Assembly (NCBI GenBank): GCA_949297275.1
Contig: CASFQR010000006.1
Location: forward strand, 1 to 50,885
Length of the DNA: 50,885 bases
Direction of reading: 5' to 3'
From: an uncultured bacterium
GTDB lineage: Bacteria > Bacillota_I > Bacilli_A > RFN20 > CAG-826
Shown here: positions 146-44,218 of the stretch, piece by piece
Layout of the letters: each line of letters opens with the position of its first letter
How positions within the stretch are numbered: the first letter of the stretch is position 1
Notes under the pieces: model-generated
Told to the model about the DNA's origin: nothing
What the model saw: the letters and a program-made list of their open reading frames with translations, nothing else
Databases searched by the model: none
Program-made: the position numbers and the translations under genes

Positions 146-207
146 CTAAATATTTTTGAAATTTTCGGCTCTTTAAATTCTATGAATTAATGCTAATATT
201 TTTAGGT

Positions 208-1455
208 ATGGAACACATCTTGCCTTCGGATTTTTTAGAAATTGATAATGTCTCGGTTATTTCTAATCTTGATAAAGATGTTTTGCTTGATTTATATCAA
301 CCCTTAATTGGTTCAAAAGCCGTTATGCTTTATTTAACTTTATACAAACAAAGTAAAGATAGTGATGAGGAAGAATTATTAATTGTTGAAGATTTATTAT
401 CTTTTATGAATATATCGACTGGCGAATTACTTTTAGCCCGGCAAGCCCTTGAAGGCGTGGGCTTAATTGAAACCTATTTAAAAGAAGAAAATAATTTAAG
501 ATATTTTTTAATCAAAATGTTTTCACCTAAAACACCGAAAGATTTCTTTGCTGATATTTTATTTAATGGTTTATTAATTTCTTATGTTGGTGAAAAAAAC
601 GCGAAGCGTCTAGCGTTTAAATACGCGATTTATCCGCGGAGCACTCTAGGGTATCATAATGTTTCAGCCTCTTTCCGCGATGTCTTTAATCCAAATTATG
701 ATTCAAAAGCCTTTCGCACTAATTTAGGAATTCAAACGATGGGTCATGTTGAAGGTAAAGTGCGTTATGATTTTAACAAAGAAACTTTCTATCAATATTT
801 AAATGAAAAAACCCAAATTAATCCTAAGGTTATTAATCACGATGATATCTTAGAAATTGAACGCCTTGCTTCCTTATTAAATATTAACGAAGAAGAAATG
901 GTGAATATTGTTAATGAAATTTATAATCCTTACGCCCAAGAGCATCTTAATTATGAAAAACTCTTTGATGCTTCTATTAAATCATTATCTTATCCGATAA
1001 GAAAAAGAACAATCATTAGTAAAAAAGCCGAAATTTATTCCTCGAGTCAAATCGCGGATAAAATTAGATTATTTGACGCTAAAACGCCTCTAGAAATGCT
1101 TTCGCTTTTAAGAGATAATACCCAGCCCGCTGAAGCTGATATTAAGATTTTAGATTTTATTTCGCGAAAATATGGTCTACCTAACAATGTAATTAATCCA
1201 ATATTAGATTATTGTTTAAGTAAAAATAACGGCATCTTATCACGTAATTATATCGATAAAATCGCTTCTAATGTGGCAAGTGAGAAAATCGATAATGCTG
1301 TCGATACGATGAATTATCTTAATCGCGTTTCGCAAAAAGCCCATCGTAAACAAGCTAGTGCTATTAAGGTAAAAGAAGTTAAAAAGACTGAAAGTCCTAA
1401 AGAAGAAGTTTTAACGCCTGAAGAGCAAGCTATCGTCGATGAATTTTTTAAGTAG
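208..1455 (+). CDS. dnaB: Replication initiation and membrane attachment protein DnaB
   Basis: This 415-residue protein resembles the Bacillus-type DnaB primosome protein (not the E. coli helicase). In Firmicutes it works with DnaD and DnaI to load the replicative helicase at oriC and at restart sites. The N-terminal part looks like a winged-helix DnaB/DnaD domain, and the segment around residues 215-290 (EEMVNIVNEIYNPYAQEHL) fits the DnaB_2-type helical region. A Lys/Glu-rich tail follows. An ATG 18 bases upstream (190) is in frame, but 208 was chosen because the predicted protein then starts with the family-like MEHILPSDF. No strong Shine-Dalgarno sequence precedes either start. dnaI follows 11 bases downstream, the usual Bacilli pairing, which is the strongest support for the call. 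Confidence 0.85.
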   Translation: MEHILPSDFLEIDNVSVISNLDKDVLLDLYQPLIGSKAVMLYLTLYKQSKDSDEEELLIVEDLLSFMNISTGELLLARQALEGVGLIETYLKEENNLRYFLIKMFSPKTPKDFFADILFNGLLISYVGEKNAKRLAFKYAIYPRSTLGYHNVSASFRDVFNPNYDSKAFRTNLGIQTMGHVEGKVRYDFNKETFYQYLNEKTQINPKVINHDDILEIERLASLLNINEEEMVNIVNEIYNPYAQEHLNYEKLFDASIKSLSYPIRKRTIISKKAEIYSSSQIADKIRLFDAKTPLEMLSLLRDNTQPAEADIKILDFISRKYGLPNNVINPILDYCLSKNNGILSRNYIDKIASNVASEKIDNAVDTMNYLNRVSQKAHRKQASAIKVKEVKKTESPKEEVLTPEEQAIVDEFFK

Positions 1456-1466
1456 TAGAGGTCATT

Positions 1467-2354
1467 ATGGAAAAAATCAATCCGCAAGAATTTATGAACC
1501 AGCATGGTGTTGAGGAAATCAAAAAGGAATTATTTTCGCAAATTGAAAAAGATCGTTTCATCTACCAAAAGATGTTAGATTTAGGTTTATCGCGTAAAGA
1601 TATCTTTGCAAATGTAGCTAAAATTAGTGAATATCAAGAAGATTATCATTATTGTGAAAATTGTCCTGGTTTAGCTAATTGTAAGAAGAAAAATCCTCAT
1701 CTCGAATTGACCTTAATTTATGAAGATAATGAATTAGGGCGCGAATTTACGCCTTGCAAACGAATCCGTGAAAATATCGATAAAAATAAAAATTATCTCT
1801 ATCGTGATTTTGATGAAGATATCCTCAATACTAAAATTGATTTTTATGAAGAAAGAAAGAAAGTTTTAAATGCTTTTTCAAAAGTGATTGCTTCTAATAA
1901 TAATACTTGGTTTTATCTATCAGGTCCCATCAATAGTGGCAAATCATTTTTAGCCGCTCATTTAGCGAATATCTATGTGACCAAAACGAACCGGGAAGTC
2001 GCTTATTTAGAAGCAAATAATCGCATCAAAGAATTATCTGATTTATATTTTGAAGATCGGGAAAAATTTGACCGCGAATTTAATTCGTTAGCAAATATTT
2101 CTTTATTAATCATCGATAATTTTGGCAGTGAATATCATTCTGACTTTATCCGCGACACTATTCTTTATCCGCTTTTATATAATCGTTATAAAAATAACAA
2201 AGTAACTATTCTAGTTAGCGATTTTGCCCTCAATGATTTAAATCTCCTCTACGCTTCTAAAAATCGTGATGGCTATTTAAAAAGCCGACAATTTGTCGAC
2301 TTAATTAAAGGTAAGGCTCAAGAATATAATTTAGAAACGATTCTTTTTAAGTAA
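1467..2354 (+). CDS. dnaI: Primosomal helicase loader DnaI
   Basis: AAA+ ATPase of 295 residues that loads the DnaC/DnaB-type hexameric helicase onto DNA in the cytoplasm. Walker A is GPINSGKS at residues 153-160 and Walker B is LLIID at 213-217. The N-terminal region carries C63, C66, H78 and C97, whose spacing resembles the zinc site of Bacillus DnaI, which binds helicase. The start is supported by GAGGT seven bases upstream. It is the second gene of the dnaB-dnaI operon, and its 3' end overlaps the convergent mutM-coaE gene by 24 bases, so the two operons meet without an intergenic terminator. Confidence 0.92.
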   Translation: MEKINPQEFMNQHGVEEIKKELFSQIEKDRFIYQKMLDLGLSRKDIFANVAKISEYQEDYHYCENCPGLANCKKKNPHLELTLIYEDNELGREFTPCKRIRENIDKNKNYLYRDFDEDILNTKIDFYEERKKVLNAFSKVIASNNNTWFYLSGPINSGKSFLAAHLANIYVTKTNREVAYLEANNRIKELSDLYFEDREKFDREFNSLANISLLIIDNFGSEYHSDFIRDTILYPLLYNRYKNNKVTILVSDFALNDLNLLYASKNRDGYLKSRQFVDLIKGKAQEYNLETILFK

Positions 2355-3749
2355 ATCTTGATAGAGTGAATCTAATTGCTCTTTTAAGTTAAGATAGTCA
2401 CCATCATTATTAATTAGATAGTCGCTGATGAGGCGATTATTTTTTTCATCATAGCTTTGATTAATCTTTAAAATATCTAAATCTTTTTGGCGCATCTTTA
2501 AATGAGCAATGCGATTCTTTTCTAAGCAAGCAACATAGATGATATCATGCATTAGTTCATCGCACCTAGCTTCAAACATTAAGGGGACTTCAATGATAAA
2601 TTTCTTATCTAGAGAATTTTCGGTTAAGGTTTCAATTTGGCGATAAACAAGCGGGTAGAGGTATTTTTGCATCTTGCAATTAAGTTCAGGTTTAGCTAAT
2701 AAAACACCTTTAAGTAATGATTTATTTATTTGTCCTTGATCATTTAAATCAAGGTTAGTAATTTTTGATAATTTTTTAATTACATCTTCTTGGTGATATA
2801 GATCTAAAATAATTTGATCAGCAGAAATGTAAGTAAAACCCTTGTTAATAAAATAATTAGCAATAGTTGATTTTCCACTTGCGACTTTGCCAGTTAAACC
2901 AAGCAAATATTTTGTTTCGCCATCGCGTTGGAGGTGGCGGCAATAAGTCGTACCGCGGCCATTTAATTTTGTCTTATAAAAGCGGTGGGTACATTTATCG
3001 GAAAATAGATGCGCTTTCCCATAACAAAGTAATTTATCTTGATAAGATCCCGAGATATCTTTGCCAGGATGATATGATTTAATCGTTGAACCTTTTAAGG
3101 CAATTGCTAATTCGAGAATTCGTTTACTTTCGCGTAAAATATCTTTAAATTGCATTAAAGTAAGCGCAGAAGCCTTCTTAAATGGTGAAATTTCGACAGC
3201 GTACAATGTTTCATCGACATAAATATTTCCTAAACCAGAAATTAAAGATTGATCGAGTAAAGTTTCTTTTAAAGTGCGTCTTGATAAGATGAATTTTTGA
3301 TATAAAGGTAAAACATCTTTTTCTTTGATTTCTAAGGGATCTAATCCGACATGATTTAGTGGTGGCTTAAGTAAATAGTCTTCTTCAGTGCTTAAAAGCA
3401 TTCTACCAAAATGACGCGTATCATTATAAATAAGCGTGAGATTATCGCTAAGATGAAAAATAACCATATCATGAGTATTAAATTTAGCTTCATAACCTTG
3501 GAAAGTAAAAAATTTACCTTCCATTCTTAAATGAGAAATCATAACTAAATTATCGTTAAAATGAAAAACGAGGAATTTGCCTTTTCGGGTAATATCATTT
3601 ATCTTTTTAAGCTTTAAAAGTTCTTGAAAAGATTTTACATCTCCTTCGATGATATTTTCATTTAAAACAATAACATCTAAAATTGTTTTTTTTAAAATTT
3701 CGTTTTTTAAGATTTGAATAACTGTTTCAACTTCAGGGAGTTCTGGCAT
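2331..3749 (-). CDS. mutM-coaE: Fused formamidopyrimidine-DNA glycosylase / dephospho-CoA kinase
   Basis: One 472-residue reading frame joins two enzymes. Residues 1-278 are MutM/Fpg, the base-excision glycosylase for 8-oxoguanine: it starts MPELPEVETV with catalytic P2/E3, has the NDTRHFGRM segment (109-117) and the helix-two-turn-helix signature ISGLGNIYVDE (170-180). Residues 281-472 are CoaE, the last step of coenzyme A synthesis: P-loop GKVASGKS at 287-294, SADQ near 311 and EVPLMFE. No stop or start separates them. The MutM zinc finger is degenerate: of four expected cysteines only C253 and C270 remain, the other positions being Ser250 and Leu273, although the GRGT hairpin is kept. In many Firmicutes mutM and coaE are neighbours after polA, so the fusion probably arose from that order. 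It is last in the nrnA-dnaE-polA operon. Confidence 0.9.
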   Translation of the reverse strand: MPELPEVETVIQILKNEILKKTILDVIVLNENIIEGDVKSFQELLKLKKINDITRKGKFLVFHFNDNLVMISHLRMEGKFFTFQGYEAKFNTHDMVIFHLSDNLTLIYNDTRHFGRMLLSTEEDYLLKPPLNHVGLDPLEIKEKDVLPLYQKFILSRRTLKETLLDQSLISGLGNIYVDETLYAVEISPFKKASALTLMQFKDILRESKRILELAIALKGSTIKSYHPGKDISGSYQDKLLCYGKAHLFSDKCTHRFYKTKLNGRGTTYCRHLQRDGETKYLLGLTGKVASGKSTIANYFINKGFTYISADQIILDLYHQEDVIKKLSKITNLDLNDQGQINKSLLKGVLLAKPELNCKMQKYLYPLVYRQIETLTENSLDKKFIIEVPLMFEARCDELMHDIIYVACLEKNRIAHLKMRQKDLDILKINQSYDEKNNRLISDYLINNDGDYLNLKEQLDSLYQDLLKKNRF

Positions 3750-6347
3750 TTATTTGACCTCGTACCATGATTTAGCCTCGCCGATGGAGACTTCTAATTT
3801 AATTTTGTCATTTAAAATGTTTTCCATGATTTCTTTGATTTTATCTATGACGATATCTTTTTCTTTGATGGCTAATTTGAAGATTAATTCATCATGGATT
3901 TGCATAATTAATTTGGTTTCAAAATTATTTTCAGTTAAATATTTATCGACTTCAATCATGGCGATTTTAATGATGTCAGCCGCTGTTCCTTGGATCGGAG
4001 CGTTTACCGCTGCTCTTTTAGCAAATTCGCGAATTTGATAGGAAGTATCAAATAATTCTTTAAGATATCTTCTTCGACCATATAAAGTTGTAACATATCC
4101 TTGCTTATGGGCTTCTAGACTTATTTGATTAAAATAATCATTGATTTCTGGGAATGCTTGATAGAAGGCTTTGATGATTTCTTTAGCTTCATTAATTGGG
4201 ACACCGATTTGTTCGGCTAAACCCCATTCCGAAATCCCATAAATTATGCCAAAATTGACAGTTTTAGCCTTGCGACGTTCTTCATCATTGATTGTTTCTT
4301 TATGGAAAATCTTTTGAGCGGTTAAGGCGTGGATATCGCCATGGGCATTAAAGACATCTTGCATCGATTTAGAATTAGCTAAAGTTGCAACGATGCGTAG
4401 CTCAATTTGTGAATAATCTAATGATAAGAAATGATAATCATCTTGATAATAAAAAGCTTGACGAATTAATTTACTTTCTTCGTCACGGACGGAAATATTT
4501 TGTAAATTAGGTTCAGAACTTGATAAACGTCCGGTTTGGGTTAAAGCTTGATTATAGATGGAATGGAGTTTTTGATCAGGAAATAAATGATTAATTAAGC
4601 CGTCAATATAAGTTGAGCATAATTTCGCGTATTTGCGGTAATTGATAATTTCTTCCACGATGGGGTGACGATCTTTAATCGCGTTCAACGCTTCAATATT
4701 CGTCGATTCTTTTTTATTGATGCTAGCAATTTTTAAGTCATGATATAAAACTTCACCAACTTGCTTAGGCGAATCAATATTAAATTCTTTGTTAGCGTAT
4801 CCATAGATTTTTTCTTGACTAGCGAGCATTTTTTCTTGATAAATACTACCAATTTCTAATAATTTCTCGCGACTTAAAGGTACGCCTTCAATTTCCATTT
4901 TCGCTAAAACATTGATAAGTGGCATCTCGATTTCGTTAAAAAGTTTTAAAGAAGCAACTTTATCTAATTCTGATTTAATTTTACCTTCAAGATGTAAAGA
5001 GTGATGGGAGATAAGGGCCAATTCTTGATTATCGTTATCATTAAATAAAGCAAGATCATCTTGATTGTTGTTTTTAATATCTACACCAAAAAGTTTAAAG
5101 ACATTTTCCTCATCGCTTTGATTCGATGAATCTAAAATATAGGACGCAAGCATGATATCAAAAGCCACACCTTGTAAATTAATGCCATAACGCTTAAATA
5201 AAACAATCATCCCCTTTAAATCAAAACCATATTTTTGAATTGAAGGATTTTCTAAAATATCTTTAAGATAAGAATCTTTTAAAAGATCTTCTTGATTAAT
5301 AATATAGGTGTCTTCTTTAATGGTAATGGCCAATTTAGTTAGTGTAGCTAAGTGATAATTAAAATGATCTTTTTTAAGCGCAAGACCAATTTTATTATCA
5401 AGCGGAATATCTTTAAAGCTTGAAATAATTTGTGGTTCAATTTCTAAAAGTGCATCGCTAATTTTAAATTTAGCGGGCAAACGGCCTAAAAATTGTTTTA
5501 GTTCATAGCGATTAGCAAATTTTTGCACGAATTCATAACTATAGCCTTGATAAAGGGTATCTTCGACATCAAAGGGTAGAGGTACATCATCATAAATAAT
5601 CGCTAAATGTTTACTTTTTAGACCAATTTCTTGATGAAGTAAAATATTTTCCCCTAATTTTCCTTTTATTTCGCCAGCATGTAGGATGATATTTTCTAAA
5701 GTGCCATAACTATTAATTAATTTAGAAGCCGTGACATCACCAATCCCAGGAATTCCAGGGATATTATCACTTTTATCACCGGTTAGACCTTTATAATCGA
5801 CAATATATTCTGGACCAAAACCAAATTTGTCTTTAACACCATTAATATCCATCTTAGCAATATCACTTAAGCCTTTTTTAATTAGATTAACGGTTATTGA
5901 AGGACTCACTAATTGTAAAAAATCGCGATCAGAAGTATAGATATAAACATCAATACCTTTTGCTTTTGCTCTTTTTGCCATCGTGCCACAGACATCATCA
6001 CCTTCAAAACCTTCTTTTTCAAAAGTGAAAATATTTAAAGATTTTAATAATTCACGGGCTAAGGGCATTTGGGAAATTAATTCATCGGGAACTTTACTCC
6101 GATTAGCTTTATATGTTTCATCCTCTTGGTGGCGGAAAGTCTTTTTGCCAGTATCAAAGCCAACAAAGAAATAATCACCTTGATTTAAAGTCGCTAAGAG
6201 GCGATTAATCATATTGGCAAAGGCAAAGACTGCATTCGTATAAATTCCGTCACTCGTTTGCATTAAAGGTTGATCTTTATTATACGCAGTCGCGTAATAA
6301 GCGCGAAATAACAATGAATTGCCATCAACAATATACATTTTATTCAT
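3750..6347 (-). CDS. polA: DNA polymerase I
   Basis: Full-length family A polymerase (865 residues) for Okazaki fragment maturation and repair. Residues 1-290 form the 5' nuclease (VDGNSLLFRAYYA, GDKSDNIPGIPGIG). Residues about 315-470 are a 3'-5' exonuclease-like fold, but the first exonuclease motif (Asp-x-Glu) is replaced by GLALKKD near 321-327, so proofreading is probably absent, as in Bacillus and Thermus Pol I. The polymerase domain has motif A DYSQIELR (644-651), motif B with K695, F699 and Y703, and motif C QIHDE with D819/E820. GAGG lies nine bases before the chosen ATG, inside the end of dnaE, which it overlaps by 8 bases. The stop is immediately followed by mutM-coaE, indicating one transcript. 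Confidence 0.97.
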   Translation of the reverse strand: MNKMYIVDGNSLLFRAYYATAYNKDQPLMQTSDGIYTNAVFAFANMINRLLATLNQGDYFFVGFDTGKKTFRHQEDETYKANRSKVPDELISQMPLARELLKSLNIFTFEKEGFEGDDVCGTMAKRAKAKGIDVYIYTSDRDFLQLVSPSITVNLIKKGLSDIAKMDINGVKDKFGFGPEYIVDYKGLTGDKSDNIPGIPGIGDVTASKLINSYGTLENIILHAGEIKGKLGENILLHQEIGLKSKHLAIIYDDVPLPFDVEDTLYQGYSYEFVQKFANRYELKQFLGRLPAKFKISDALLEIEPQIISSFKDIPLDNKIGLALKKDHFNYHLATLTKLAITIKEDTYIINQEDLLKDSYLKDILENPSIQKYGFDLKGMIVLFKRYGINLQGVAFDIMLASYILDSSNQSDEENVFKLFGVDIKNNNQDDLALFNDNDNQELALISHHSLHLEGKIKSELDKVASLKLFNEIEMPLINVLAKMEIEGVPLSREKLLEIGSIYQEKMLASQEKIYGYANKEFNIDSPKQVGEVLYHDLKIASINKKESTNIEALNAIKDRHPIVEEIINYRKYAKLCSTYIDGLINHLFPDQKLHSIYNQALTQTGRLSSSEPNLQNISVRDEESKLIRQAFYYQDDYHFLSLDYSQIELRIVATLANSKSMQDVFNAHGDIHALTAQKIFHKETINDEERRKAKTVNFGIIYGISEWGLAEQIGVPINEAKEIIKAFYQAFPEINDYFNQISLEAHKQGYVTTLYGRRRYLKELFDTSYQIREFAKRAAVNAPIQGTAADIIKIAMIEVDKYLTENNFETKLIMQIHDELIFKLAIKEKDIVIDKIKEIMENILNDKIKLEVSIGEAKSWYEVK

Positions 6348-9300
6348 TTTGATAATCCTCTAATAATGTCATATTTATTACATTAAATGTCTCTTTATTA
6401 CTATTATAATAACCTTCAACGATAACGATATTCCCTCTTTTGATAATGCCATAGCATTTGCGATAAACTTCACTAAAAATGACTAATTCGCATTCACCCG
6501 TGTCATCATTTAATAAAACAAAGGCCATATTATCACCCTTTTTAGTTTTGAGCTTGCGTTCATTTTTAATAAAACCCGCGATTTGGATGTCGCCGATTGC
6601 ACTGCTGATATTAACAATTGGGGTAATATTTAAATGCTTAATTTTTTCTTGATAATTAGTTAAAGGAGAACCACTAAGCATAATCCCTAATAATTCATAT
6701 TCTCTTTTTAAATTATCTAAAAGATCATCTTTGGCTTTACTCATAATTGGTTTAGGGAAGACACCTTCTAAACCTAAAGAATTTTCATATTCAACGAAAT
6801 TTTGGGCATACATTAAGGCGGCTAGTAACGAAGCTCTTAACGAGGAGCGAGAAGGATATAAGCTATCTAAAGCTCCCGCGTCTATTAATTTAACAATGGT
6901 CGATTGACCGACTTTATAAGGGTAAATTCTTAAGACAAAATCGAAGAAATCTAGATATGGTCCATTTTTATCTCGTTCTAATAAAATGGCATCAACTTGG
7001 TTTGATAAAATACCTTTAATTTGATTTAAAGGGAAAATAACTTCATTTCGCTTAACTAAGTACCTTTTTGAAGAGAGATTAATGTTTGGCAAAGTAAGTT
7101 TTAAACAAACTTTTTTCATCTCAGAAACAATCATGTTAAAAGTTTCATCCTTAGAGGAGGTATTATCTAAAATCGCCGCATAAAATTCTTCTTTATAATG
7201 ATATTTTAAATAAGCCATCTGAGTGGCTAAAATCGCGTAAGATAAAGAGTGGGAGCGATTAAAACCATAATTCGCGAATCTTTCAATTAAATTATAAATA
7301 TTATTCGCTTCAATATTTGAGACGCCGTTTTTTAGACATCCATCGATGAAATCCGGTTTTAACGCTAAAAGTTTTTCTTGGTTTTTCTTTGATATCGCCT
7401 GGCGGAAGATATCGGCCTTACTTAATGGGAAGAGAGCAACTTTATTCGCAATTTGAATAATTTGTTCTTGATAGACGATAATGCCATAAGTGGACGCTAA
7501 AATATCTTTTAATAGGGGCGAGACATAAGATACTTTTTCAAGCCCTTTTTTTCTTCTAGCGTAAGTTGGAATATTTTCCATTGGACCAGGGCGAAAGAGG
7601 GCTAAGAGAGCAACAATATCTTCAAATGTTGTCGGTTTAAGGGTTTTAATCGCTCTTTTCATGCCGCTACTTTCTAGTTGGAATATGCCCATTGTTAAGC
7701 CATCATGAATTAATTCAATCGCTTTTTCATCTTCATAGGGCAAGGCATAATAATCTAATTTAATGCCTTTATCTTCTTCGACACGCGTTAAACATTCTTG
7801 AATGATAGTTAAATTGCGAATGCCTAGGATATCCATCTTTAAGAAACCTTGATCTTGTAGATAATCCATTTGGTATTCCGAAATTAACATATTATTTTCA
7901 TCATTGATGCAAGGTAAAACATTTTCTAAAGGGGCATCATTTAAAATTACCCCAGCTGCGTGAAGGCCTCTTTGACGCGGCAAGCCTTCAATTTTACTTG
8001 CTAAAGCAACGATATTTAAATAATATTTATCGCTATCAATCAATTTGCGAAATTGTTCATTTTTCCGATAATTATCGCGTAAAGATAATGATGAATCGAT
8101 GATTAATTTAGATATTAAATCGATTTCCCGCGTTTCATAATTATAGATGCGACCGATATCTCTTAATGATTGTTTTGCCCCGATTGTTTGGAGAGTTAAA
8201 ATATTAGCCACATGGGTTTTGCCATATTTTTCTTTTAAATAATCAATGACTTGATATCGCCTAACATCGCTAAAATCGACATCGATATCTGGCATTGATC
8301 GGCGATCTTTATTTAAAAATCTTTCAAATAATAAATTGTATTTAAGAGGATCAGCGATCGTAATATTTAAACAATAAGAAACTAAAGAACCAGCCGCGCT
8401 GCCTCGCCCTGGTCCTACGACGATACCATGCTTTTTTGCATAATTAACATAATCGCTTACTAAGAGAAAATAATCGCTATAACCCATCGAAATAATTACA
8501 TCAAGTTCTTCATTCAAACGCGCGCGATATTTATCATTATCTAAACCGCGTTCTTTTAAATTATCAAAAGTAATTTTTCTTAAATATTCATCGCTTGATA
8601 ATCCTTCGTTATTTTGATAATGGATTAAATTTCCTCTTTTAATAATTAAACTAAAATCGATGGTTTGAAAGATTTTTAAATTAGCAATTTCTTCTTCTAA
8701 ATAATAATTTTCTAAATCTAAATCACTTAATAAATATTCTTCACCTTCTTCTTCTTTTTCTTTTAATGTTTCCTCTTTATCGATCGCTTCGACGATTTTT
8801 AAAGTGATTGCGTCTTCTTTTTTCTCATAACGAATAAAAGGGAAAGCAAGAAGGGGATAATTGTATTTTTTAGCAAATTCGCGAATCGTTTCTCTTTCTA
8901 AGATATCATAACCATAATCTAAACCTAAATATACTTCTTGACCTAGATTGGTTAAATCGCGAATAATGAGATTTAAACCATCGTTCTTAAAATTGAAATT
9001 GCGTGTTTTGATGACGATAATTAAATCTTTTGTTAAATCTTTTATTTGCCCTAGTTTTAATTGACCGCAGGAATTTTGATAATGGATTTTTAATAAATTA
9101 AGATAACCATTTTCATTTTTGACATAAAAAGAAAATAAATAATCTTCGATTAAAAAATCTTCCCCAATAATGGGTGAAATTCCTAATTTTTTTAAACCTA
9201 AATAGAATTCAGGTGCGCTGCTAAGGGTTTGGAAATCACTTAAACCCGCCCATTTAAAATTACGTTTTTTAATTGCTTGAAGATAACGCGCAATCGTTAA

Positions 9301-9360
9301 ACCACTCTTTAAAAAAGAATTGCCGGAATAAACATGTAAAGGGATAAAATTATTCATCAT
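6340..9360 (-). CDS. dnaE: DNA polymerase III alpha subunit, DnaE type
   Basis: Family C replicative polymerase of 1006 residues, shorter than the roughly 1100 of Bacillus DnaE. Order: PHP-like domain (about 1-240), palm with PGRGSAAGS (317-325) and the catalytic aspartates in PDIDVDF (357-363) plus D510 in KMDILG, fingers, tandem helix-hairpin-helix region, and a C-terminal OB fold (about 920-1000). The PHP domain has lost its metal ligands: the usual HLxVHS reads PLHVYS at 7-12 and the later TDH-type motif is GLSDF, so it should not be an active nuclease. In Bacilli DnaE extends primers before PolC takes over; polC is not in this window. The start overlaps the nrnA stop as ATGATG/TGA, showing translational coupling. 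Confidence 0.96.
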   Translation of the reverse strand: MMNNFIPLHVYSGNSFLKSGLTIARYLQAIKKRNFKWAGLSDFQTLSSAPEFYLGLKKLGISPIIGEDFLIEDYLFSFYVKNENGYLNLLKIHYQNSCGQLKLGQIKDLTKDLIIVIKTRNFNFKNDGLNLIIRDLTNLGQEVYLGLDYGYDILERETIREFAKKYNYPLLAFPFIRYEKKEDAITLKIVEAIDKEETLKEKEEEGEEYLLSDLDLENYYLEEEIANLKIFQTIDFSLIIKRGNLIHYQNNEGLSSDEYLRKITFDNLKERGLDNDKYRARLNEELDVIISMGYSDYFLLVSDYVNYAKKHGIVVGPGRGSAAGSLVSYCLNITIADPLKYNLLFERFLNKDRRSMPDIDVDFSDVRRYQVIDYLKEKYGKTHVANILTLQTIGAKQSLRDIGRIYNYETREIDLISKLIIDSSLSLRDNYRKNEQFRKLIDSDKYYLNIVALASKIEGLPRQRGLHAAGVILNDAPLENVLPCINDENNMLISEYQMDYLQDQGFLKMDILGIRNLTIIQECLTRVEEDKGIKLDYYALPYEDEKAIELIHDGLTMGIFQLESSGMKRAIKTLKPTTFEDIVALLALFRPGPMENIPTYARRKKGLEKVSYVSPLLKDILASTYGIIVYQEQIIQIANKVALFPLSKADIFRQAISKKNQEKLLALKPDFIDGCLKNGVSNIEANNIYNLIERFANYGFNRSHSLSYAILATQMAYLKYHYKEEFYAAILDNTSSKDETFNMIVSEMKKVCLKLTLPNINLSSKRYLVKRNEVIFPLNQIKGILSNQVDAILLERDKNGPYLDFFDFVLRIYPYKVGQSTIVKLIDAGALDSLYPSRSSLRASLLAALMYAQNFVEYENSLGLEGVFPKPIMSKAKDDLLDNLKREYELLGIMLSGSPLTNYQEKIKHLNITPIVNISSAIGDIQIAGFIKNERKLKTKKGDNMAFVLLNDDTGECELVIFSEVYRKCYGIIKRGNIVIVEGYYNSNKETFNVINMTLLEDYQNE

Positions 9361-18401: not shown

Positions 18402-20144
18402 ATGGAAAAAATAGAAAATTTATCGCTTTATCCTCGACCCTCTTTTAGGAGAAATTCTTATTTATCCCTCCATGGCGCTTGGGATTATAAAATTTTAAAA
18501 GACGATGAATTCAAAATATGGGATAAATTAAATTATGATGGTGAGATCTTGGTCCCTTATCCTCTTGGTTCTAGTTATAGCCAAGTAAATAAAATTTTAA
18601 AACCGGATGAAATCTTAATTTATCATAAAAAAATTAACCTTCCAAAAGATTTTATCATACCTAATGGTCATTTAATCATAAATTTTTTCGGGGTTGATCA
18701 AATTGCCATATTATATATAAATGATCATTTTGTCGGAAAACATGAAGGTGGTTACACTCCTTTCAGTTATGATATTTTACCTTTTCTTAATCTAGAAGGT
18801 GATAATGATTTATATCTTTATGTCAAAGATTACACTGATACATCCTATTATGGTCGCGGCAAACAAACTTTAAAACCGCATGGGATTTGGTATCACCCCT
18901 TTAGTGGCATTTATTTACCGGTCTTTTTAGAAGCAACACCATTAGAATATTTATTAAATATTAAAATCACCCCTTTGTTTGATGAAGGGAAAATTGATAT
19001 CTATTTAGAGGCAACGAGTAAAAATATACCAGCCCAAATCCTTTTAGAAGGAGAAGAAATAACTTTACCAATTCAAGAACATTATCAATATCAATTAAAA
19101 AATATCCACCCTTGGTCAATTGCTGATCCCTATCTTTATGATTTTAAAATCAAATATGGTAGTGACGAAATAGCGTCTTATTTTGGCTTCCGTAAAATTG
19201 AAATTAAAGAAGATCATAAGAAGATAAAAAGAATTTATTTAAATAATAACCCCATCTTTTTAAATGGTTTATTAGATCAAGGTTATTTTGCCAATAATTC
19301 GATTACTCCTTTCAAGGAAGAAGAATATCTTCGCGATATTAAAATTGCAAAAGCTTTAGGGTATAACACCTTAAGGAAACATCTTAAAATTGAAAATCCT
19401 CTCTTTTATTATTATTGCGATAAAGAGGGAATGTTAGTCATCCAAGATTTTGTTAATGGTGGTGAGAAATATTCGACCTTTATCACCGTCATCACTGGCT
19501 TTTTAGGTTGGCACTTTAACGATTCTAATTACAGTTTATTTAAGCGGAATAATCCTAAAGGACGCGAGTTATTTAAAGAGGCAATTAAAACAACCCTCAC
19601 TCATTTATATAATCACCCTTCAATTATTATGTACACCATCTTTAATGAAGGCTGGGGACAATTTGATTCTAAATTAATTTATGAATTATGTTTAAAGAAT
19701 GATTCATCGCGCCTTTATGATGTTAATAGTGGTTGGCATGACCAAAAAGTTGGTAAGATAAAATCAATCCATAAATATTTTGTTAAATATCATGAAAAAC
19801 CTGATAAATATCACCGCCTAAAATTCCTCTCTGAATTTGGTGGCTATTCCTTGATTAAAGATAAAGAAAATTTAAATTATCCCGCCTTTGGCTATAAATT
19901 CTATCGTTCCTCCGACGACTTAATTAATGCAATTAGTCGCCTATATTATCACGAAATTATTCCTGCAATTCCTCGCGGTTTAAGTGGGGCAATTTATACC
20001 GAACTTAGCGACGTCGAAGGAGAAGTTAATGGCTTAGTAACTAATTCGCGTGATTGTGTTAAAGTCGATCAAAGCAAAATGCGAAAAATAAATGAAGATT
20101 TGCAAATAGAATTTGTTAAAAACACTATAAATGAAGAAAAATAA
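18402..20144 (+). CDS. Glycoside hydrolase family 2 enzyme, cytoplasmic
   Basis: GH2 enzyme of 580 residues (beta-galactosidase/glucuronidase/mannosidase family). Domains: jelly-roll sugar-binding (about 10-178, with HGAW and GGYTPFSYDI), Ig-like (about 180-268), and TIM barrel (about 270-560). The acid/base is E416 in FNEGWGQF and the nucleophile is E478 in SEFGG. It lacks the large C-terminal domains of LacZ. There is no signal peptide, so it should act on sugar imported by the operon's transporter. With galM in the same operon and galT elsewhere, a beta-galactosidase is the favoured guess, but the TIM-barrel pocket does not let me assign the sugar. It overlaps the first protease gene by 14 bases. 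Confidence 0.88.
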   Translation: MEKIENLSLYPRPSFRRNSYLSLHGAWDYKILKDDEFKIWDKLNYDGEILVPYPLGSSYSQVNKILKPDEILIYHKKINLPKDFIIPNGHLIINFFGVDQIAILYINDHFVGKHEGGYTPFSYDILPFLNLEGDNDLYLYVKDYTDTSYYGRGKQTLKPHGIWYHPFSGIYLPVFLEATPLEYLLNIKITPLFDEGKIDIYLEATSKNIPAQILLEGEEITLPIQEHYQYQLKNIHPWSIADPYLYDFKIKYGSDEIASYFGFRKIEIKEDHKKIKRIYLNNNPIFLNGLLDQGYFANNSITPFKEEEYLRDIKIAKALGYNTLRKHLKIENPLFYYYCDKEGMLVIQDFVNGGEKYSTFITVITGFLGWHFNDSNYSLFKRNNPKGRELFKEAIKTTLTHLYNHPSIIMYTIFNEGWGQFDSKLIYELCLKNDSSRLYDVNSGWHDQKVGKIKSIHKYFVKYHEKPDKYHRLKFLSEFGGYSLIKDKENLNYPAFGYKFYRSSDDLINAISRLYYHEIIPAIPRGLSGAIYTELSDVEGEVNGLVTNSRDCVKVDQSKMRKINEDLQIEFVKNTINEEK

Positions 20145-21411
20145 GTTTTTAAATATTAGTTTTTTATTACCATTAATTATTGGATTTGGTTCTTCTTTTA
20201 TAACCAAAAATGACCATAATTATTTCCCTAACGATATATCAAATATTCCAGAAGAAATTTTAAACGCTAAACTGGAAACGACAACTGTTTCTAGTGCCTC
20301 GCCTTATATTTTATCCCCGCGCGATGAACCATATTTTTCGCGGCAATTACAATTTGAAACTATCGATTATTCTTCAACTTATAATTTAACACGTGGCGAA
20401 GATATTAAAGTGGCGGTGATCGATACCAAACCGCAAATTAATCACCTTGATTTCTTTGATGAAATTGGTAATAGCGTTTTTTCTAATGATAGCGCCTTAA
20501 TTGTTGGAAGTGCGAGTGGGAATGTTTATTATAGCGTAGAGGAATATGGCTTAGATATCATTGCTGAAACAGCGTCTTCTAGTAAGCATGGAACTTCGAC
20601 AATGGGTGTGATTAGCGCCCAAGTGAATGGTGTATTAGGCGCAGGTATCGCCCCGGAATGCGAATTGATTGCCATCGCTTTAGAAAACGCAACGGTTGGT
20701 GAGATGCTCGGCGCTTTTCAATATGCTTATCAATTAGATGTTGATATTATTTCCATCTCGATGCTTGTTTACGAAAATACTTTTACGGATATTAATGGAG
20801 TTGAACATATTGGCGTTAGTGGCATCAAAGATGTCATTACTCCTTATTTAGAAGCATTATATCTTGCTGATATTGCCGTGGTCGCTAGTGCGGGAAACGA
20901 ATCCACTAATCAATTAGCCTATCCTGCTAATAGTGAATATGTTATTAGTGTTGGGGCTTTAGCAACCCGATCTTCTACTAATCTAGCTACTTATTCTAAT
21001 TACGGACATTCTTTCTTAGTCGCACCTGGTACCGTCTATGCTCCAGCGACTTTTTATCCTGAAGTAGGTCAACCACAATATAATCGCTATGGGCAATTTG
21101 AAGGTACATCTTTTTCAGCCCCAATCGTCGCCGGCGCTTTAGCGTTATATAAATCCATAAATTTAGATGCTAGTGTCGACGAATTAAAAAATGCTCTCAA
21201 AGAAAGCGCGGTTGATTTAGGCATAGAAGGCTATGATGAACTCTATGGCTATGGCCGCTTATCAATCGCGAATTTATTAAATTACGAACAACCTTTTGCC
21301 TTGATAAACTATATTTACATTATTATTGGGGCAATTTTATTACTTGCTTTAATTGGTGTAATTATTTTCATCATCGTCTATACTCGTAAACGTAAAATCT
21401 TTGAAAAATAG
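20131..21411 (+). CDS. Membrane-anchored subtilisin-like serine protease 1
   Basis: Peptidase S8 protein of 426 residues. A hydrophobic N-terminus (about 7-23) fits a signal peptide, then a short linker leads directly to the catalytic domain (about 85-375) with D98 (VAVIDTK), H153 (KHGTS), oxyanion N256 (SAGNES) and S327 (GTSFSAP). The first motif reads DTK rather than the usual DTG. A membrane helix at about 393-416 is followed by a basic tail RKRK, so the protease faces outside and is tethered to the membrane. There is no I9-type propeptide. It is the shortest of three consecutive paralogues and lacks the extra C-terminal region of the other two. Substrate unknown. Confidence 0.9.
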   Translation: MKKNKFLNISFLLPLIIGFGSSFITKNDHNYFPNDISNIPEEILNAKLETTTVSSASPYILSPRDEPYFSRQLQFETIDYSSTYNLTRGEDIKVAVIDTKPQINHLDFFDEIGNSVFSNDSALIVGSASGNVYYSVEEYGLDIIAETASSSKHGTSTMGVISAQVNGVLGAGIAPECELIAIALENATVGEMLGAFQYAYQLDVDIISISMLVYENTFTDINGVEHIGVSGIKDVITPYLEALYLADIAVVASAGNESTNQLAYPANSEYVISVGALATRSSTNLATYSNYGHSFLVAPGTVYAPATFYPEVGQPQYNRYGQFEGTSFSAPIVAGALALYKSINLDASVDELKNALKESAVDLGIEGYDELYGYGRLSIANLLNYEQPFALINYIYIIIGAILLLALIGVIIFIIVYTRKRKIFEK

Positions 21412-21420
21412 GAAAAATAT

Positions 21421-23574
21421 ATGTTAAAAATCACTTTATTAATTGGAACATTATTCTCGTTAAATATCGGATTGATTAATCTACCTTTAAAAGAAAATCA
21501 ATTGGAAGGATTCTCTTATCATCGCCAAGTTGAAATTAGTGATGCTTCTTTTATTAAGGCATCAACTTTTGATCAAGATATTATTCCTCCTTATGATTAT
21601 TTAGAAGAAGAATATTCTTATCTTAATGAGCCGTTTTATACTGGGGAAAATAATTATTTATCTTATCTCGATGAGATTAATTTAGGTGATATTCTTAACC
21701 AATATCGCGGGGAAAATGTTAAGGTCGCTGTGCTTGATACTGGTTATAATTATCTCCATGAAGAATTTTCTTATCTAGACGAAAATAACAAGCGACAATC
21801 TTTATTTTCTCCTGATAGCGCACTTATTAACCTCGATTATAATTCTAGTACAGGTGAATATTATTTAGACATTTATCCCGTCAAAGATTATGGTTATGAA
21901 GTCATTATGGAGGATACTAATCCGGAAACTTATAGTGCTAATAATCATGGGACAGCAGTGGCTGGTACCATCTTTTCACAAATTAACGGTGTTGGTGGCT
22001 TTGGGGTCGCTCCAAATGTTGAATTAATAGCGATTAAATTAGGTCACCTTTATCTTGATGAAATTAAATATGCTTTAGAATATCTTCTTGAAATTGGGGA
22101 TGTAGATATTGTTACGATGTCATTAGGCGTTTATGCTGAAAGTTTTACGACGACGATTGATGGTCAAACTTATCAAATAAGTGGCACTAGCGAAGTTCAA
22201 ACATATTTAGCGGATGTCATTAAAAGATGTTATCAAAACGATATCTTTGTTTTAGCTTCCGCCGGAAATGAAAATACCACCCATATTTCTTATCCAGCTG
22301 GAAATGATTATGTTTATAGCGTTGGTGCTTTAGATGATAATGATTTAACGAAACGCGCATCTTATTCTAATTATGGTAATGTTGATATTTACGCTCCTGG
22401 GACAGTAGTTAGTCCAACTGGCTTTTATGATGATCCTAAACTTGATCCAAATTCTTCTTATGGAATAATTTCAGGTACTTCTTTTTCTTGCCCGTTAGTA
22501 GCGGGAATCGCTGCCTTATATAAAGCTAAATATCCTTACGCCAAACCGAATCAAATTGCTGAAGCCATCAATTTAACTGCGACTGATTTAGGTGAAAGTG
22601 GCCATGATGATATTTTTGGTTATGGTCGGATCTCAATTAGCGACTTAATGTCTTTTGTCCCACTAAAACAAGTTACATCCCATAAAAATCTTTTATTAGC
22701 GATTAATAGTGAACCATTGGCATTAGATTTAGAACTTTCACCATCTAACGCGTCTAATCAAGATTTTATTATCATTAATCAAGGTGCTGAAAATGTTTTA
22801 GATTATACGAATAATATTATTAATCCTTTAAATCTTGGTGATTTTGCTTATGAATATCATTATCTAAATCACGCACCTTTAAAAGGCACTGAAAATGACC
22901 CAAGTGATTTCATCATTAAAGTTAGTGGGCAAGTCTTAAATAATTTCGATGATGTTATATTAAGTTCTTTCAACGAAACATTTTTCTTTAATCAAGAACT
23001 TAATATCAATGATTTCTTCTTAATTTATCAAGATGATTATTATGATATCCCCATAGCGAATAATATTTATTTTAATTATGAACGGGCGAATTTTATCCCG
23101 CGTAAAGAAATTATTTTATCTTATTTAGGGCATGAATTTCCTTATTTCTTAAATGTCTCAATCGATGATTTATCTACTGATGATTTCCCCTTAGCGGTCA
23201 ATGCTTATTTAAACTATTTCGATGAAATTACCCATCAAGAATGTCTAAATAATTATGATCATTTTAGCGAAACCCTATGGAATGATTTAAAGATTTTATA
23301 TGAGGAATTAATTAGTAAAAATCCTCAATATAATAATGAAGTAGTGGAAGCGATGAATGATGATCTCTTAGAGCGTTATCGCTTAATTACTAATAAATAT
23401 CAATATGATGATTTTTTAGATTTAAATTTAGAAACATTCTTATTTAATCATCCCTTAGTTGATGAGACGAATAATAATTTATTAATTATTATAACTACTT
23501 TGAGTGTTGGCTTTTTTATCCTCTTAACTTTCTTAACAATTAATCGCCATAAAGGACAACAAAAAAATGATTAA
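21421..23574 (+). CDS. Membrane-anchored subtilisin-like serine protease 2
   Basis: Peptidase S8 protein of 717 residues: signal-like N-terminus (1-22), acidic linker, catalytic domain (about 95-412) with D106 (VAVLDTG), H176 (NNHGTAVAG), N283 (SAGNEN) and S354 (GTSFSCP). A long region of about 180 residues without a recognised fold follows, then a module at about 594-667 (ECLNNYDHFS ... RYRLITNKYQYDDF) that is shared with protease 3, and a membrane helix at about 686-706 with a short charged tail. It begins 9 bases after protease 1 and overlaps protease 3 by 8 bases. All catalytic residues are present, so an active ectoprotease is expected. Confidence 0.9.
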   Translation: MLKITLLIGTLFSLNIGLINLPLKENQLEGFSYHRQVEISDASFIKASTFDQDIIPPYDYLEEEYSYLNEPFYTGENNYLSYLDEINLGDILNQYRGENVKVAVLDTGYNYLHEEFSYLDENNKRQSLFSPDSALINLDYNSSTGEYYLDIYPVKDYGYEVIMEDTNPETYSANNHGTAVAGTIFSQINGVGGFGVAPNVELIAIKLGHLYLDEIKYALEYLLEIGDVDIVTMSLGVYAESFTTTIDGQTYQISGTSEVQTYLADVIKRCYQNDIFVLASAGNENTTHISYPAGNDYVYSVGALDDNDLTKRASYSNYGNVDIYAPGTVVSPTGFYDDPKLDPNSSYGIISGTSFSCPLVAGIAALYKAKYPYAKPNQIAEAINLTATDLGESGHDDIFGYGRISISDLMSFVPLKQVTSHKNLLLAINSEPLALDLELSPSNASNQDFIIINQGAENVLDYTNNIINPLNLGDFAYEYHYLNHAPLKGTENDPSDFIIKVSGQVLNNFDDVILSSFNETFFFNQELNINDFFLIYQDDYYDIPIANNIYFNYERANFIPRKEIILSYLGHEFPYFLNVSIDDLSTDDFPLAVNAYLNYFDEITHQECLNNYDHFSETLWNDLKILYEELISKNPQYNNEVVEAMNDDLLERYRLITNKYQYDDFLDLNLETFLFNHPLVDETNNNLLIIITTLSVGFFILLTFLTINRHKGQQKND

Positions 23575-25519
23575 AACGCTTTTAATATCTATTATTTCTA
23601 TCTTAACTTTTACGAATATAAATGTTTTAAATATTAATAAAAATTTAGAAGAAGAAGTTCTTTATCAATTTAATCATGATATTTTTGCAATGAATGATCC
23701 TTATCAAGAACCATATTATTTAAATAATGCCCAATATCAATATCAACATCTTGATTTAGGTGATAGTTGGTTAACTACTTTAGGTGAAGGAGTTAAGATT
23801 GCCATTATTGATACCGGGATTCGCTATGACCATCATGATTTTATTGATGAAAATGGTCAATCAATTATTTCGCCTGATAGCGCCTCTTTTACGCGAGTAA
23901 ATTCTATCGGTGGTGGTACCCATATTGAAATTAAAACCGTCAAAGAAGATGGTTATGAAATTTTAATGGAAGATACCACTAATACATCTAATAATCATGC
24001 GACTGCGGTGACGGGAACGATTGCCGCTGCTTTAAATAAGGAACTAGGTGTCGGTTTAGCGCCCCAAGCGGAAATTATAAATTTAAAATTAGGTAATTTA
24101 CAGAATCTCGAATTATATGCTGCCTTAGAATATGCTTTAACTTTAGATGTAGATATTATCAATATGTCCTTTTCCCTTTATGAAAGTAATTATCCTGGCA
24201 TTGCTAAATCTTTAAAGCCTTATATTGATGCTTGCGATGAACAAGGGATAGTGATGGTCGCTAGTAGTGGGAATGATGAAACTTATCTCCCTAGTTATCC
24301 AGCCGCTTATGATAATGTGATTGCTGTTGGGGCCTTAAAAGATAATTCTTCAACTGAAATCGCCGAATATTCAAACTTTTCTTATAACGATATTGTAGCG
24401 CCAGGAACCGTCTATGCCCCCTGGATTGATTATAATGGCCCATATACTTTGGATGACTATCATTATATTTCGGGTACTTCGTTTGCTGCTCCTTTAACTG
24501 CCGCTGCGTTAGCCTTATATAAATCAAAATATCCTTCCGCTAATAGTGCTCAAATGAAAGAAGCTCTCCTTAATAGTGCGGTTGATTTAGGTGAAGTAGG
24601 TTATGATTATGATTTTGGTTATGGTCGTTTATCGGTTACTAATTTATTAAATTATCCACCAATTGAAACTGTCTCTTATTACGATGAAATCAAAATTCCT
24701 TTAAATATTCAAACTTATCAAATTAATTTAACGACTTCCCCCGATGATCTGATTTTAAAAAATATTGAATATACTTCTAGTAATGAAGATATCGCTAGTG
24801 TGAACGCGACTGGTTTATTAACTTTAAAGCAATTAGGTGAAACGACGATTAGTTATCGTTCTAAAGTTAATCCTAATATTGAGGGTAGTTTTCTATTAGA
24901 AGTTATTGCTGATAATATCGATTTAGATTTAACTAATACCAAAACACATTATACTTTTGGGGAAAAGGTTACTAACACTGATATCAAATTTTTAGATAAT
25001 TATCTACCTCCTAATTTAACGATTAAAGGTGAGACGAAAAAATTAGGAGCATATCAAATTAAAGTCGTTATTGATGGTTATGAGATTCCTCTAACTATTA
25101 AAGTGACAAATTTAAATGCCTTAGCCTCTAATTTTACTCCCATGGAACAAGCTGAGGCTTATTATCAATATTTTATGACCTTAAGTGGGGAGGAATGTCT
25201 AAATCACTATGATCATTTTTCCTTAGAGATATGGGAAGAATTAAAGAATGAATATAATTACCTCCTTAATAGCAGTAAAGAAGAATTATTATCTTTAGAT
25301 AATTTTGAAACCTTAAATCAAAGATATACCTTAATTGTCAATAAATATCACTACGATGATTTTATTAAAGATGTTTCAACTAATAATGTTTTAAATCCTC
25401 TTACTAATTATTCCAAAGTTATCTTCTTAATCTTTACCTTATCTTTAGGAATAATTGCTATCTTTTTAACTAGTATCTTATATATAATTTTCAAAGCAAA
25501 AAAGCCAAAAAATAAGTAA
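23567..25519 (+). CDS. Membrane-anchored subtilisin-like serine protease 3 with Ig-like domain
   Basis: Peptidase S8 protein of 650 residues: signal-like N-terminus (1-20), catalytic domain (about 65-362) with D82 (IAIIDTG), H144 (NNHATAVTG), N236 (SSGNDE) and S305 (GTSFAAP). The His motif is HAT instead of the common HGT. A BIG2-type Ig-like domain follows (about 375-446, with YTSSNEDIASVNATGLLT), then a small beta-rich domain (about 450-515), the juxtamembrane module shared with protease 2 (about 528-599), a membrane helix (about 617-642) and a Lys-rich tail. It is the last gene of the operon starting at galM. Substrate unknown. Confidence 0.9.
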   Translation: MIKTLLISIISILTFTNINVLNINKNLEEEVLYQFNHDIFAMNDPYQEPYYLNNAQYQYQHLDLGDSWLTTLGEGVKIAIIDTGIRYDHHDFIDENGQSIISPDSASFTRVNSIGGGTHIEIKTVKEDGYEILMEDTTNTSNNHATAVTGTIAAALNKELGVGLAPQAEIINLKLGNLQNLELYAALEYALTLDVDIINMSFSLYESNYPGIAKSLKPYIDACDEQGIVMVASSGNDETYLPSYPAAYDNVIAVGALKDNSSTEIAEYSNFSYNDIVAPGTVYAPWIDYNGPYTLDDYHYISGTSFAAPLTAAALALYKSKYPSANSAQMKEALLNSAVDLGEVGYDYDFGYGRLSVTNLLNYPPIETVSYYDEIKIPLNIQTYQINLTTSPDDLILKNIEYTSSNEDIASVNATGLLTLKQLGETTISYRSKVNPNIEGSFLLEVIADNIDLDLTNTKTHYTFGEKVTNTDIKFLDNYLPPNLTIKGETKKLGAYQIKVVIDGYEIPLTIKVTNLNALASNFTPMEQAEAYYQYFMTLSGEECLNHYDHFSLEIWEELKNEYNYLLNSSKEELLSLDNFETLNQRYTLIVNKYHYDDFIKDVSTNNVLNPLTNYSKVIFLIFTLSLGIIAIFLTSILYIIFKAKKPKNK

Positions 25520-42842: not shown

Positions 42843-43396
42843 TGGTGCGTAATAAGAAATTAACTTTCAGTTTTTTAATGGTGATGATTGCCTTAGCCCT
42901 ATGCGCCTTCATCCCCTTATTTTTTCCGCTATTAAGTGTCGATAATTCTTTAACGAGCGAACGAAAGATGATGTTAAATTTTCTCCATTTAGCGTTCGGG
43001 GATGATTTTACTAATCTAGTAAATTTAGATACCTTATATATAAGTGGGAACGGGTTTATCTTTTGTACTCTCATCGCTGGCTTAGCGATGATTATGATGA
43101 CGATTATTTTTGCATTTTATTATGCTTTTTCTAAGAAAAAATCTCCATATTCTTTTATTCTCTTAGGTTTAGCAACCCCCTTTGATGCTTTATATATTGT
43201 CGGCTTATTTTTACTTCGTTCATTATTTTTAGCCTCGAACCCTAATTACGCGATTAATCAATGGAGAGTGAGTCTTTTACCTTCCTATTATATTGCTTTA
43301 ATTGCTGCGATGAGCGTAGCAATTTATTTGATATTTATTATAATATATATGGGCGTTGTTGTCCCTAGTAGGAAAGTGAATGATGTTCAAAAATAA
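42842..43396 (+). CDS. Four-helix membrane protein, unknown function
   Basis: Protein of 184 residues with four predicted membrane helices (about 9-33, 71-94, 104-126, 147-171) and a 35-residue loop after the first. I see no motif. It starts on the last base of the preceding stop codon without a clear ribosome binding site, suggesting coupled translation, and its end overlaps the next gene by 17 bases. Its neighbours are a galactokinase-like gene and a nuclease lipoprotein, which say little about its job. Confidence 0.6.
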   Translation: MVRNKKLTFSFLMVMIALALCAFIPLFFPLLSVDNSLTSERKMMLNFLHLAFGDDFTNLVNLDTLYISGNGFIFCTLIAGLAMIMMTIIFAFYYAFSKKKSPYSFILLGLATPFDALYIVGLFLLRSLFLASNPNYAINQWRVSLLPSYYIALIAAMSVAIYLIFIIIYMGVVVPSRKVNDVQK

Positions 43397-44207
43397 GATT
43401 TTAAAACCCCTTTTAAGTTTAAGCGCGACGATTGTGCTTCTAATTGGCGGCATTTTTTCTTTAAATAGTTGTAATCAAGATTATTACGCTGCAATTAAAG
43501 ATTCTTATCAAGGCGAAGAACTCAAATTAGCGTTAAATAAAATTATTAGTCATCGCGAACAAGTTAGTTACGCCTCCTTAGCCCGCATCTATGCGACTAG
43601 TGACGCTGCTCCTAATAGTGAGATTGATTCATTAACTGGTTTTCCAACAGAAGTTGTCCTATTTTATACTGGGGAAGTAGTTGAATGGTCACCTTGGGGC
43701 CAAATGGGAACATCGCTAAATGATATTAATCGTGAGCATGTTTGGCCGCAGTCGCGCTTTAAAGTTTATGGGGAAGCAATCCCAGGACCTTATAGTGATC
43801 CCCATATGGTTAGGCCAACTTTATATTCGATTAATGTTAGTCGCTCAAATTATTTCTACGCGGAAGAAGGCAATAATGTTTTTGATCCCGCTAAAATTGA
43901 GGGTGGAGATATTACTTATCGCGGCGATATCGCTCGCATCCTTTTTTACACGGCGACGCGATATTTAGAGCTTGAATTAGTGGACGCAAAAAGCGCTCCA
44001 AGTGACCTCAATCAAATGGGTTGTTTATCGGATTTATTAGAATGGAATTTAACTTATCCGGTTTTAGATAGAGAAAAACAACGTAATGAAGCAATCTATG
44101 CTTCAAGTCAAGCTAACCGCAATCCTTTTATTGATCATCCTGAATACGCTTGTCGCATTTGGGGCAATGTTAGCGATCAAACCAAAGCCATCTGCGGCTT
44201 AATTTAA
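43380..44207 (+). CDS. Secreted endonuclease I-family nuclease, lipoprotein 1
   Basis: Lipoprotein of 275 residues (lipobox LNSC, C31) with an endonuclease I (EndA/NucM-type beta-beta-alpha metal) domain. The signature REHVWPQS has H120; the second motif reads DPHMVRPTLYSINVSRSN, keeping H142 but replacing the second His of the usual DLHH by Met. RGDIARILFY and NPFIDHPEYA are also typical. Such enzymes degrade DNA or RNA outside the membrane, probably for nutrient nucleotides. An ATG ATG start offers 43380 or 43383. A second family member follows 11 bases later. Confidence 0.87.
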   Translation: MMFKNKILKPLLSLSATIVLLIGGIFSLNSCNQDYYAAIKDSYQGEELKLALNKIISHREQVSYASLARIYATSDAAPNSEIDSLTGFPTEVVLFYTGEVVEWSPWGQMGTSLNDINREHVWPQSRFKVYGEAIPGPYSDPHMVRPTLYSINVSRSNYFYAEEGNNVFDPAKIEGGDITYRGDIARILFYTATRYLELELVDAKSAPSDLNQMGCLSDLLEWNLTYPVLDREKQRNEAIYASSQANRNPFIDHPEYACRIWGNVSDQTKAICGLI

Positions 44208-44218
44208 GGAGAAAAAAT

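Follow-up and report, generated by a model that had tools for sequence, protein, structure and literature searches.

Dephospho-CoA kinases with fused partners

The dephospho-CoA kinase CoaE (DPCK) is known as one part of several bifunctional proteins. Some Mycoplasma species carry a bifunctional HAD-DPCK with the kinase at the C-terminus; the paper that describes it leaves its role unclear (PMC8721197). In eukaryotes the kinase belongs to CoA synthase (PPAT-DPCK), and PPAT-DPCK fusions occur in archaea as well (PMC6650551). The mutM-coaE fusion reported here resembles HAD-DPCK in that CoaE lies C-terminal to an unrelated enzyme in small-genome relatives, and it resembles PPAT-DPCK in that the kinase is joined to another enzyme. 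The partners differ: a HAD-like hydrolase in Mycoplasma, the preceding pathway enzyme in PPAT-DPCK (where the archaeal DPCK, moreover, is of a different family) and the DNA glycosylase MutM in the present case. HAD-DPCK and CoA synthase are precedents for a CoaE placed C-terminally to a second enzyme.

Also related are the stand-alone mutM and coaE genes found side by side in Bacilli, with the same order and the same domains, but these yield two proteins, and their CoaE has its own start and ribosome site. A MutM–CoaE fusion is not stated in the open literature searched. The nearest text is one sentence in a review (PMC3322544), which calls a phytoplasma CoaE ‘annotated as formamidopyrimidine-DNA glycosylase’ and does not state a fusion; this remark is possibly an earlier glimpse of the same arrangement. 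Both halves are known families, and what is new is MutM as a partner among bifunctional DPCK fusions. Automated databases may already label such fusion proteins multifunctional.

One frame for MutM and CoaE downstream of polA

The window, i.e. the whole 50,885-nucleotide stretch of DNA that was analysed, belongs to a metagenome-assembled genome (MAG) of 1.04 Mb (38 contigs, 85% complete). Its minus strand holds a single ATG-to-stop frame that starts MPELPEVE and encodes both enzymes (Table 1). The first-pass annotation had read MutM and CoaE in one frame of 472 residues, leaving the strand unstated, and had pointed to adjacent mutM and coaE genes downstream of polA in Firmicutes; ORF reading, Pfam and NCBIfam bear out the frame, and polA lies upstream on the same strand. 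Pfam assigns residues 1–117 to Fapy_DNA_glyco, 135–225 to H2TH and 282–451 to CoaE, each above its gathering score, and the 472-residue protein exceeds the NCBIfam equivalog cut-offs for both fpg (TIGR00577, 255.9 versus 203.3 bits) and CoaE (TIGR00152, 87.2 versus 65.55 bits). Positions P2, E3, K58 and R265, the Walker A residues G287, G292 and K293, and D311 and R420 are invariant across an alignment of 30 fused rows. From the finger end (Q274) to the first Walker A glycine (G287) there are twelve intervening residues, close to the earlier estimate of about 10; in 76 fused rows the finger-to-P-loop spacing is 8–17 residues, and exactly 12 in 33 of them.

Table 1. Positions of the fused gene, its parts and its neighbours in the window
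Feature	Position	Strand	Details and basis
Fused mutM-coaE gene	2331..3749	-	472 aa, single frame; Pfam/NCBIfam
MutM/Fpg part, residues 1–275	2925..3749	-	PELPEV N-terminus, K58, H2TH, finger; profiles, alignment, fold match
Degenerate MutM finger, residues 244–274	2928..3020	-	S250/C253/C270/L273, R265 kept; sequence, alignment
Six-residue linker, residues 276–281	2907..2924	-	Translation
CoaE (dephospho-CoA kinase) part, residues 282–472	2334..2906	-	Profiles, comparison with 1jjv
CoaE Walker A, residues 287–294	2868..2891	-	Sequence, alignment
polA, immediately upstream of the fusion	3750..6347	-	Pfam/NCBIfam
DNA polymerase III alpha (dnaE-like), upstream of polA	6340..9360	-	Pfam
DnaI-like ATPase, convergent with the fusion	1467..2354	+	IstB_IS21, 25.5 bits, just above cut-off
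DnaB_2 (replication initiation) gene, likewise convergent	190..1455	+	Pfam

The name DnaI for the convergent gene is suggested by its context; the 3′ ends of this gene and the fusion share 24 nt (2331–2354). Elsewhere on the plus strand, three subtilase (Peptidase_S8) genes stand in a row at 20131–25519, the third with a Big_2 domain, and two Endonuclease I genes (PF04231) occur in tandem at 43380–45082. Rfam and tRNA searches of the window gave no match.

Distribution among relatives

Full-length fusions with 72% and 45% identity within the genus, and 33–40% across the family, are found in independently assembled relatives; the fusion in the window is therefore real and not a chance event. 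A match is present in 54 of 58 relatives, most with both halves in one uninterrupted frame. At the level of the order (222 genomes, those at least 80% complete), the profile of the fusion matched in 212; families f1, f2, f3 and f5 have fused members, and f4, f6 and f8 are unfused in the loci read. Outside the order, at least 34 intact fusions occur among 338 genomes (31 loci, preselected on full-length matches free of stops and all fused on reading, plus G419, G230 and G293), distributed over families f12, f16, f19, f25, f26, f27 and f28. The fusion is thus found in 11 families, four within the order and seven outside. The survey covers one bacterial class, and a phylum-wide search matched members of that class only. 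One named fused relative is a MAG from goat rumen, and assembly titles of the relatives suggest that the group is gut-associated.

A stop at the junction in relatives, or an indel near 2910, had been named beforehand as a refutation of the fusion. Neither applies, since the frame is intact in the closest relatives; a single stop at the junction does occur in the unfused L196 and L197 of f8, but these belong to a different clade. Other deviating loci include a fused gene with TAA inside the MutM part and the remaining frame intact (L229, genome G462), a locus in a MAG titled uncultured Erysipelotrichaceae in which an intact MutM is followed, after a shift of frame, by a CoaE that lacks the P-loop (L087, 2692–4100), a MutM without CoaE after it (L208) and nine small f16 genomes (g171), possible phytoplasmas, with MutM alone. 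G600 was rejected as a fusion, having two frames under code 4.

Unfused precursors and loss of the internal start

Origin from two neighbouring genes that lost the stop separating them, as first proposed, is the simplest reading, since unfused relatives display the precursor. In these, mutM and coaE are often few bases apart, and in many pairs both genes lie in one reading frame interrupted by a single stop, so that a single point mutation is enough for fusion. L210 and L222, for instance, have TAA at the junction and ATG directly after it. Of the 30 adjacent pairs among named loci, 7 share a frame, about the chance third; these loci were not chosen for in-frame matches, whereas the class-search loci were, which biases the in-frame share of the latter.

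Start signals distinguish the two states. Close to where CoaE begins, an ATG combined with a match resembling a ribosome site is found in 1 of 76 fused versus 43 of 67 separate loci, and any ATG in 7 of 76 versus 58 of 67 (the 76 fused loci include the near-identical pairs L007/L082, L022/L085 and L024/L025). An internal CoaE start was also sought in the window and rejected, the junction offering only an in-frame TTG and no ribosome-site match. With the internal start lost after fusion, the cell probably makes no CoaE other than that in the fused protein.

Repeated origin

The tree, with the junction excluded, comprises 83 rows (45 fused, 38 separate) hand-picked from 170 loci to span families. 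The fused or separate state changes at least 12 times on it (11–13 over bootstraps), a count in which gains and splits are not distinguished, and nine of these changes are forced by well-supported (starred) branches. Fused rows adjoin unfused rows of the same family in f28 (support 100/99), f27 (100/97) and f19 (92/72, not starred). A single fused clade is rejected (p-AU 1.9e-5), and with it one ancestral fusion followed by splits, although some splits or decays may still have taken place (L087, L208). Both of these ‘separate’ rows lie inside a fused clade and look like decay rather than precursors. Collectively, the tree indicates that the fusion arose repeatedly across this group of small-genome bacteria. 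The alternative first offered for the window, a ‘fixed accident’ of one lineage, does not fit a fusion that is family-wide, occurs in 11 families and arose repeatedly.

State of the two halves

The MutM half has the marks of the MutM/Fpg family: Fapy_DNA_glyco and H2TH domains, an equivalog score, PELPEV with P2 and E3, K58 and R265. A fold search with the window protein retrieved MutM chains at a TMt of about 0.93; the 50 matches listed are Fpg/Nei-type chains, with no CoaE chain among them, and none of the 53 matched sequences is a solved chain covering both domains. The usual four-cysteine zinc finger is absent in the window and in genome G002. In the window the first and fourth cysteines are missing (S250 and L273), C253, H255, C270, H272 and the finger arginine are kept, and Pfam listed no zf-FPG_IleRS match at E ≤ 10. 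Loss of two finger cysteines is restricted, among the 76 fused rows, to G002 and the genome of the window (G000); a four-cysteine finger is found in 69 rows and a Cys-x3-His variant in five f27 rows. In the fused loci L182–L186 (f27 g153), Cys-x3-His replaces the first Cys-x2-Cys of the finger. The finger of G000 and G002 would thus be zincless or re-liganded, and, on its sequence, the MutM half encoded in the window belongs to the MutM family but has a degenerate finger.

The CoaE half combines the CoaE domain and a TIGR00152 score above cut-off with a Walker A motif. In the DxD motif after the P-loop helix, the second aspartate is the invariant D311 and the first, an aspartate in 1jjv, is S309. 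Given S309 and the two lost finger cysteines, one activity could be weakened in the window protein. Between G000 and G002, NG86 gives dN/dS ratios of 0.18 (MutM) and 0.27 (CoaE), rough values since dS is about 0.9; YN00 gives 0.14 for CoaE. These ratios point to purifying selection on both halves.

CoaE (PF01121, E ≤ 1e-6) is present in one copy each in 207 of the 222 order genomes. Frames of at least 440 aa hold 139 of the 150 CoaE matches listed; the other 11 are five in unfused f6/f8 and six shorter frames in otherwise fused families. Two of these six, in G071 and G155, run off a contig end. A second, stand-alone CoaE was not found in fused genomes, which have one PF01121 match each. CoaD, the enzyme preceding CoaE, scores 181.7 bits in the window's own genome, so CoaE has a substrate there. 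Ten of the 222 genomes have no fused-profile match and none of these has an H2TH match; CoaD exceeds its cut-off in eight of the ten, and the absence of both domains is likely due to MAG gaps. Two f4 genomes (G036 and G048) have MutM but lack matches to both CoaE (E ≤ 1e-6) and CoaD, possibly reflecting loss of CoA synthesis.

How and why the two enzymes became joined

It is likely, on these comparisons of sequences, that the window encodes a genuine bifunctional MutM–CoaE protein, the only recognisable CoaE of the cell, and that such proteins come from repeated stop loss in a polA-mutM-coaE operon. The N-terminal MutM/Fpg glycosylase-lyase and the C-terminal dephospho-CoA kinase would both be active in the cell. 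Fusion would begin with loss, by whatever exact mutation, of the single stop between the neighbouring genes. The MutM nucleophile is the N-terminal proline (PMC5422863), so that only the order MutM-then-CoaE would keep both enzymes; MutM would stand first of necessity, with CoaE accommodating the partner before it. Decay of the ribosome-binding site and start of coaE would then commit the cell to CoaE within the fusion. Co-production would be the main consequence, and the same stop-loss step would have been taken many times in this bacterial class.

What maintains the fusion is a separate question, and the answer that we consider fairly probable is a neutral ratchet, in which loss of the stop between in-frame neighbours is frequent and does no harm, the start within the fused gene is eroded and a return to two genes becomes difficult, with no functional coupling of the enzymes. 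The many unfused pairs that stand one stop away from fusion, the in-frame share of named pairs at about chance and the decayed start signals inside fused genes all agree with it. A ratchet alone nevertheless leaves a contrast between predicted structures unexplained. AlphaFold models the window protein (alignment of 30 fused rows) with a mean pLDDT of 91.7 and a pTM of 0.87, versus 89.2 and 0.56 for an unfused control, the L210 pair translated across its stop and aligned with 17 comparable pairs, each value coming from one model and the two differing in protein, linker and alignment depth (30 versus 18 rows).

Per-residue confidence is high in both models. The pTM contrast hints at a fixed interface, as an evolved interface would give, and is a lead towards selected physical coupling, in which joining would stabilise the enzymes, fix their stoichiometry or let the CoA/ATP state regulate repair. 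The uniformly short linkers and the repeated origin also speak for such coupling, which we nonetheless hold to be rather unlikely: the models are single and not of like proteins, and adjacent in-frame genes fuse easily, so that recurrence needs no selection. Nor is 8-oxoguanine repair known to be linked biochemically to CoA. More doubtful still is the stronger proposal, prompted by the models, that the fusion was repeatedly favoured and that a specific fixed interface in the window's lineage links the sole CoaE and base-excision repair physically, perhaps even regulatorily.

A quite improbable course is that, in the genus of the window, one half is a decaying passenger, either a MutM that is losing function next to a retained CoaE or vice versa. 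The degenerate finger peculiar to G000 and G002, the broken fusion at L087 and a mutM without coaE following in G003 could be read as stages of such decay. Between G000 and G002, however, the finger shows 86% identity, more than the 76% averaged over MutM, and it retains its arginine; a four-cysteine finger is usual among MutM/Fpg proteins, not universal, and NEIL1 and plant Fpg have zincless fingers that are active. Finally, an assembly or sequencing artefact (a missed stop or indel near 2910–2925) might be suspected with a single, incomplete MAG as source, but its probability is practically nil, the uninterrupted frame being present also in independent assemblies, including the single-contig G221 and G307.

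Significance

For annotation, CoaE is hidden in genes perhaps named MutM only, and calls of ‘missing CoaE’ in small genomes may be wrong. More broadly, these bacteria offer a natural case in which a single pair of operon neighbours has fused repeatedly, and living relatives show both the precursors, one stop codon apart, and the products, whose internal start has been erased. This makes it testable whether fusions of functionally unrelated neighbours reflect a neutral ratchet or selected coupling.
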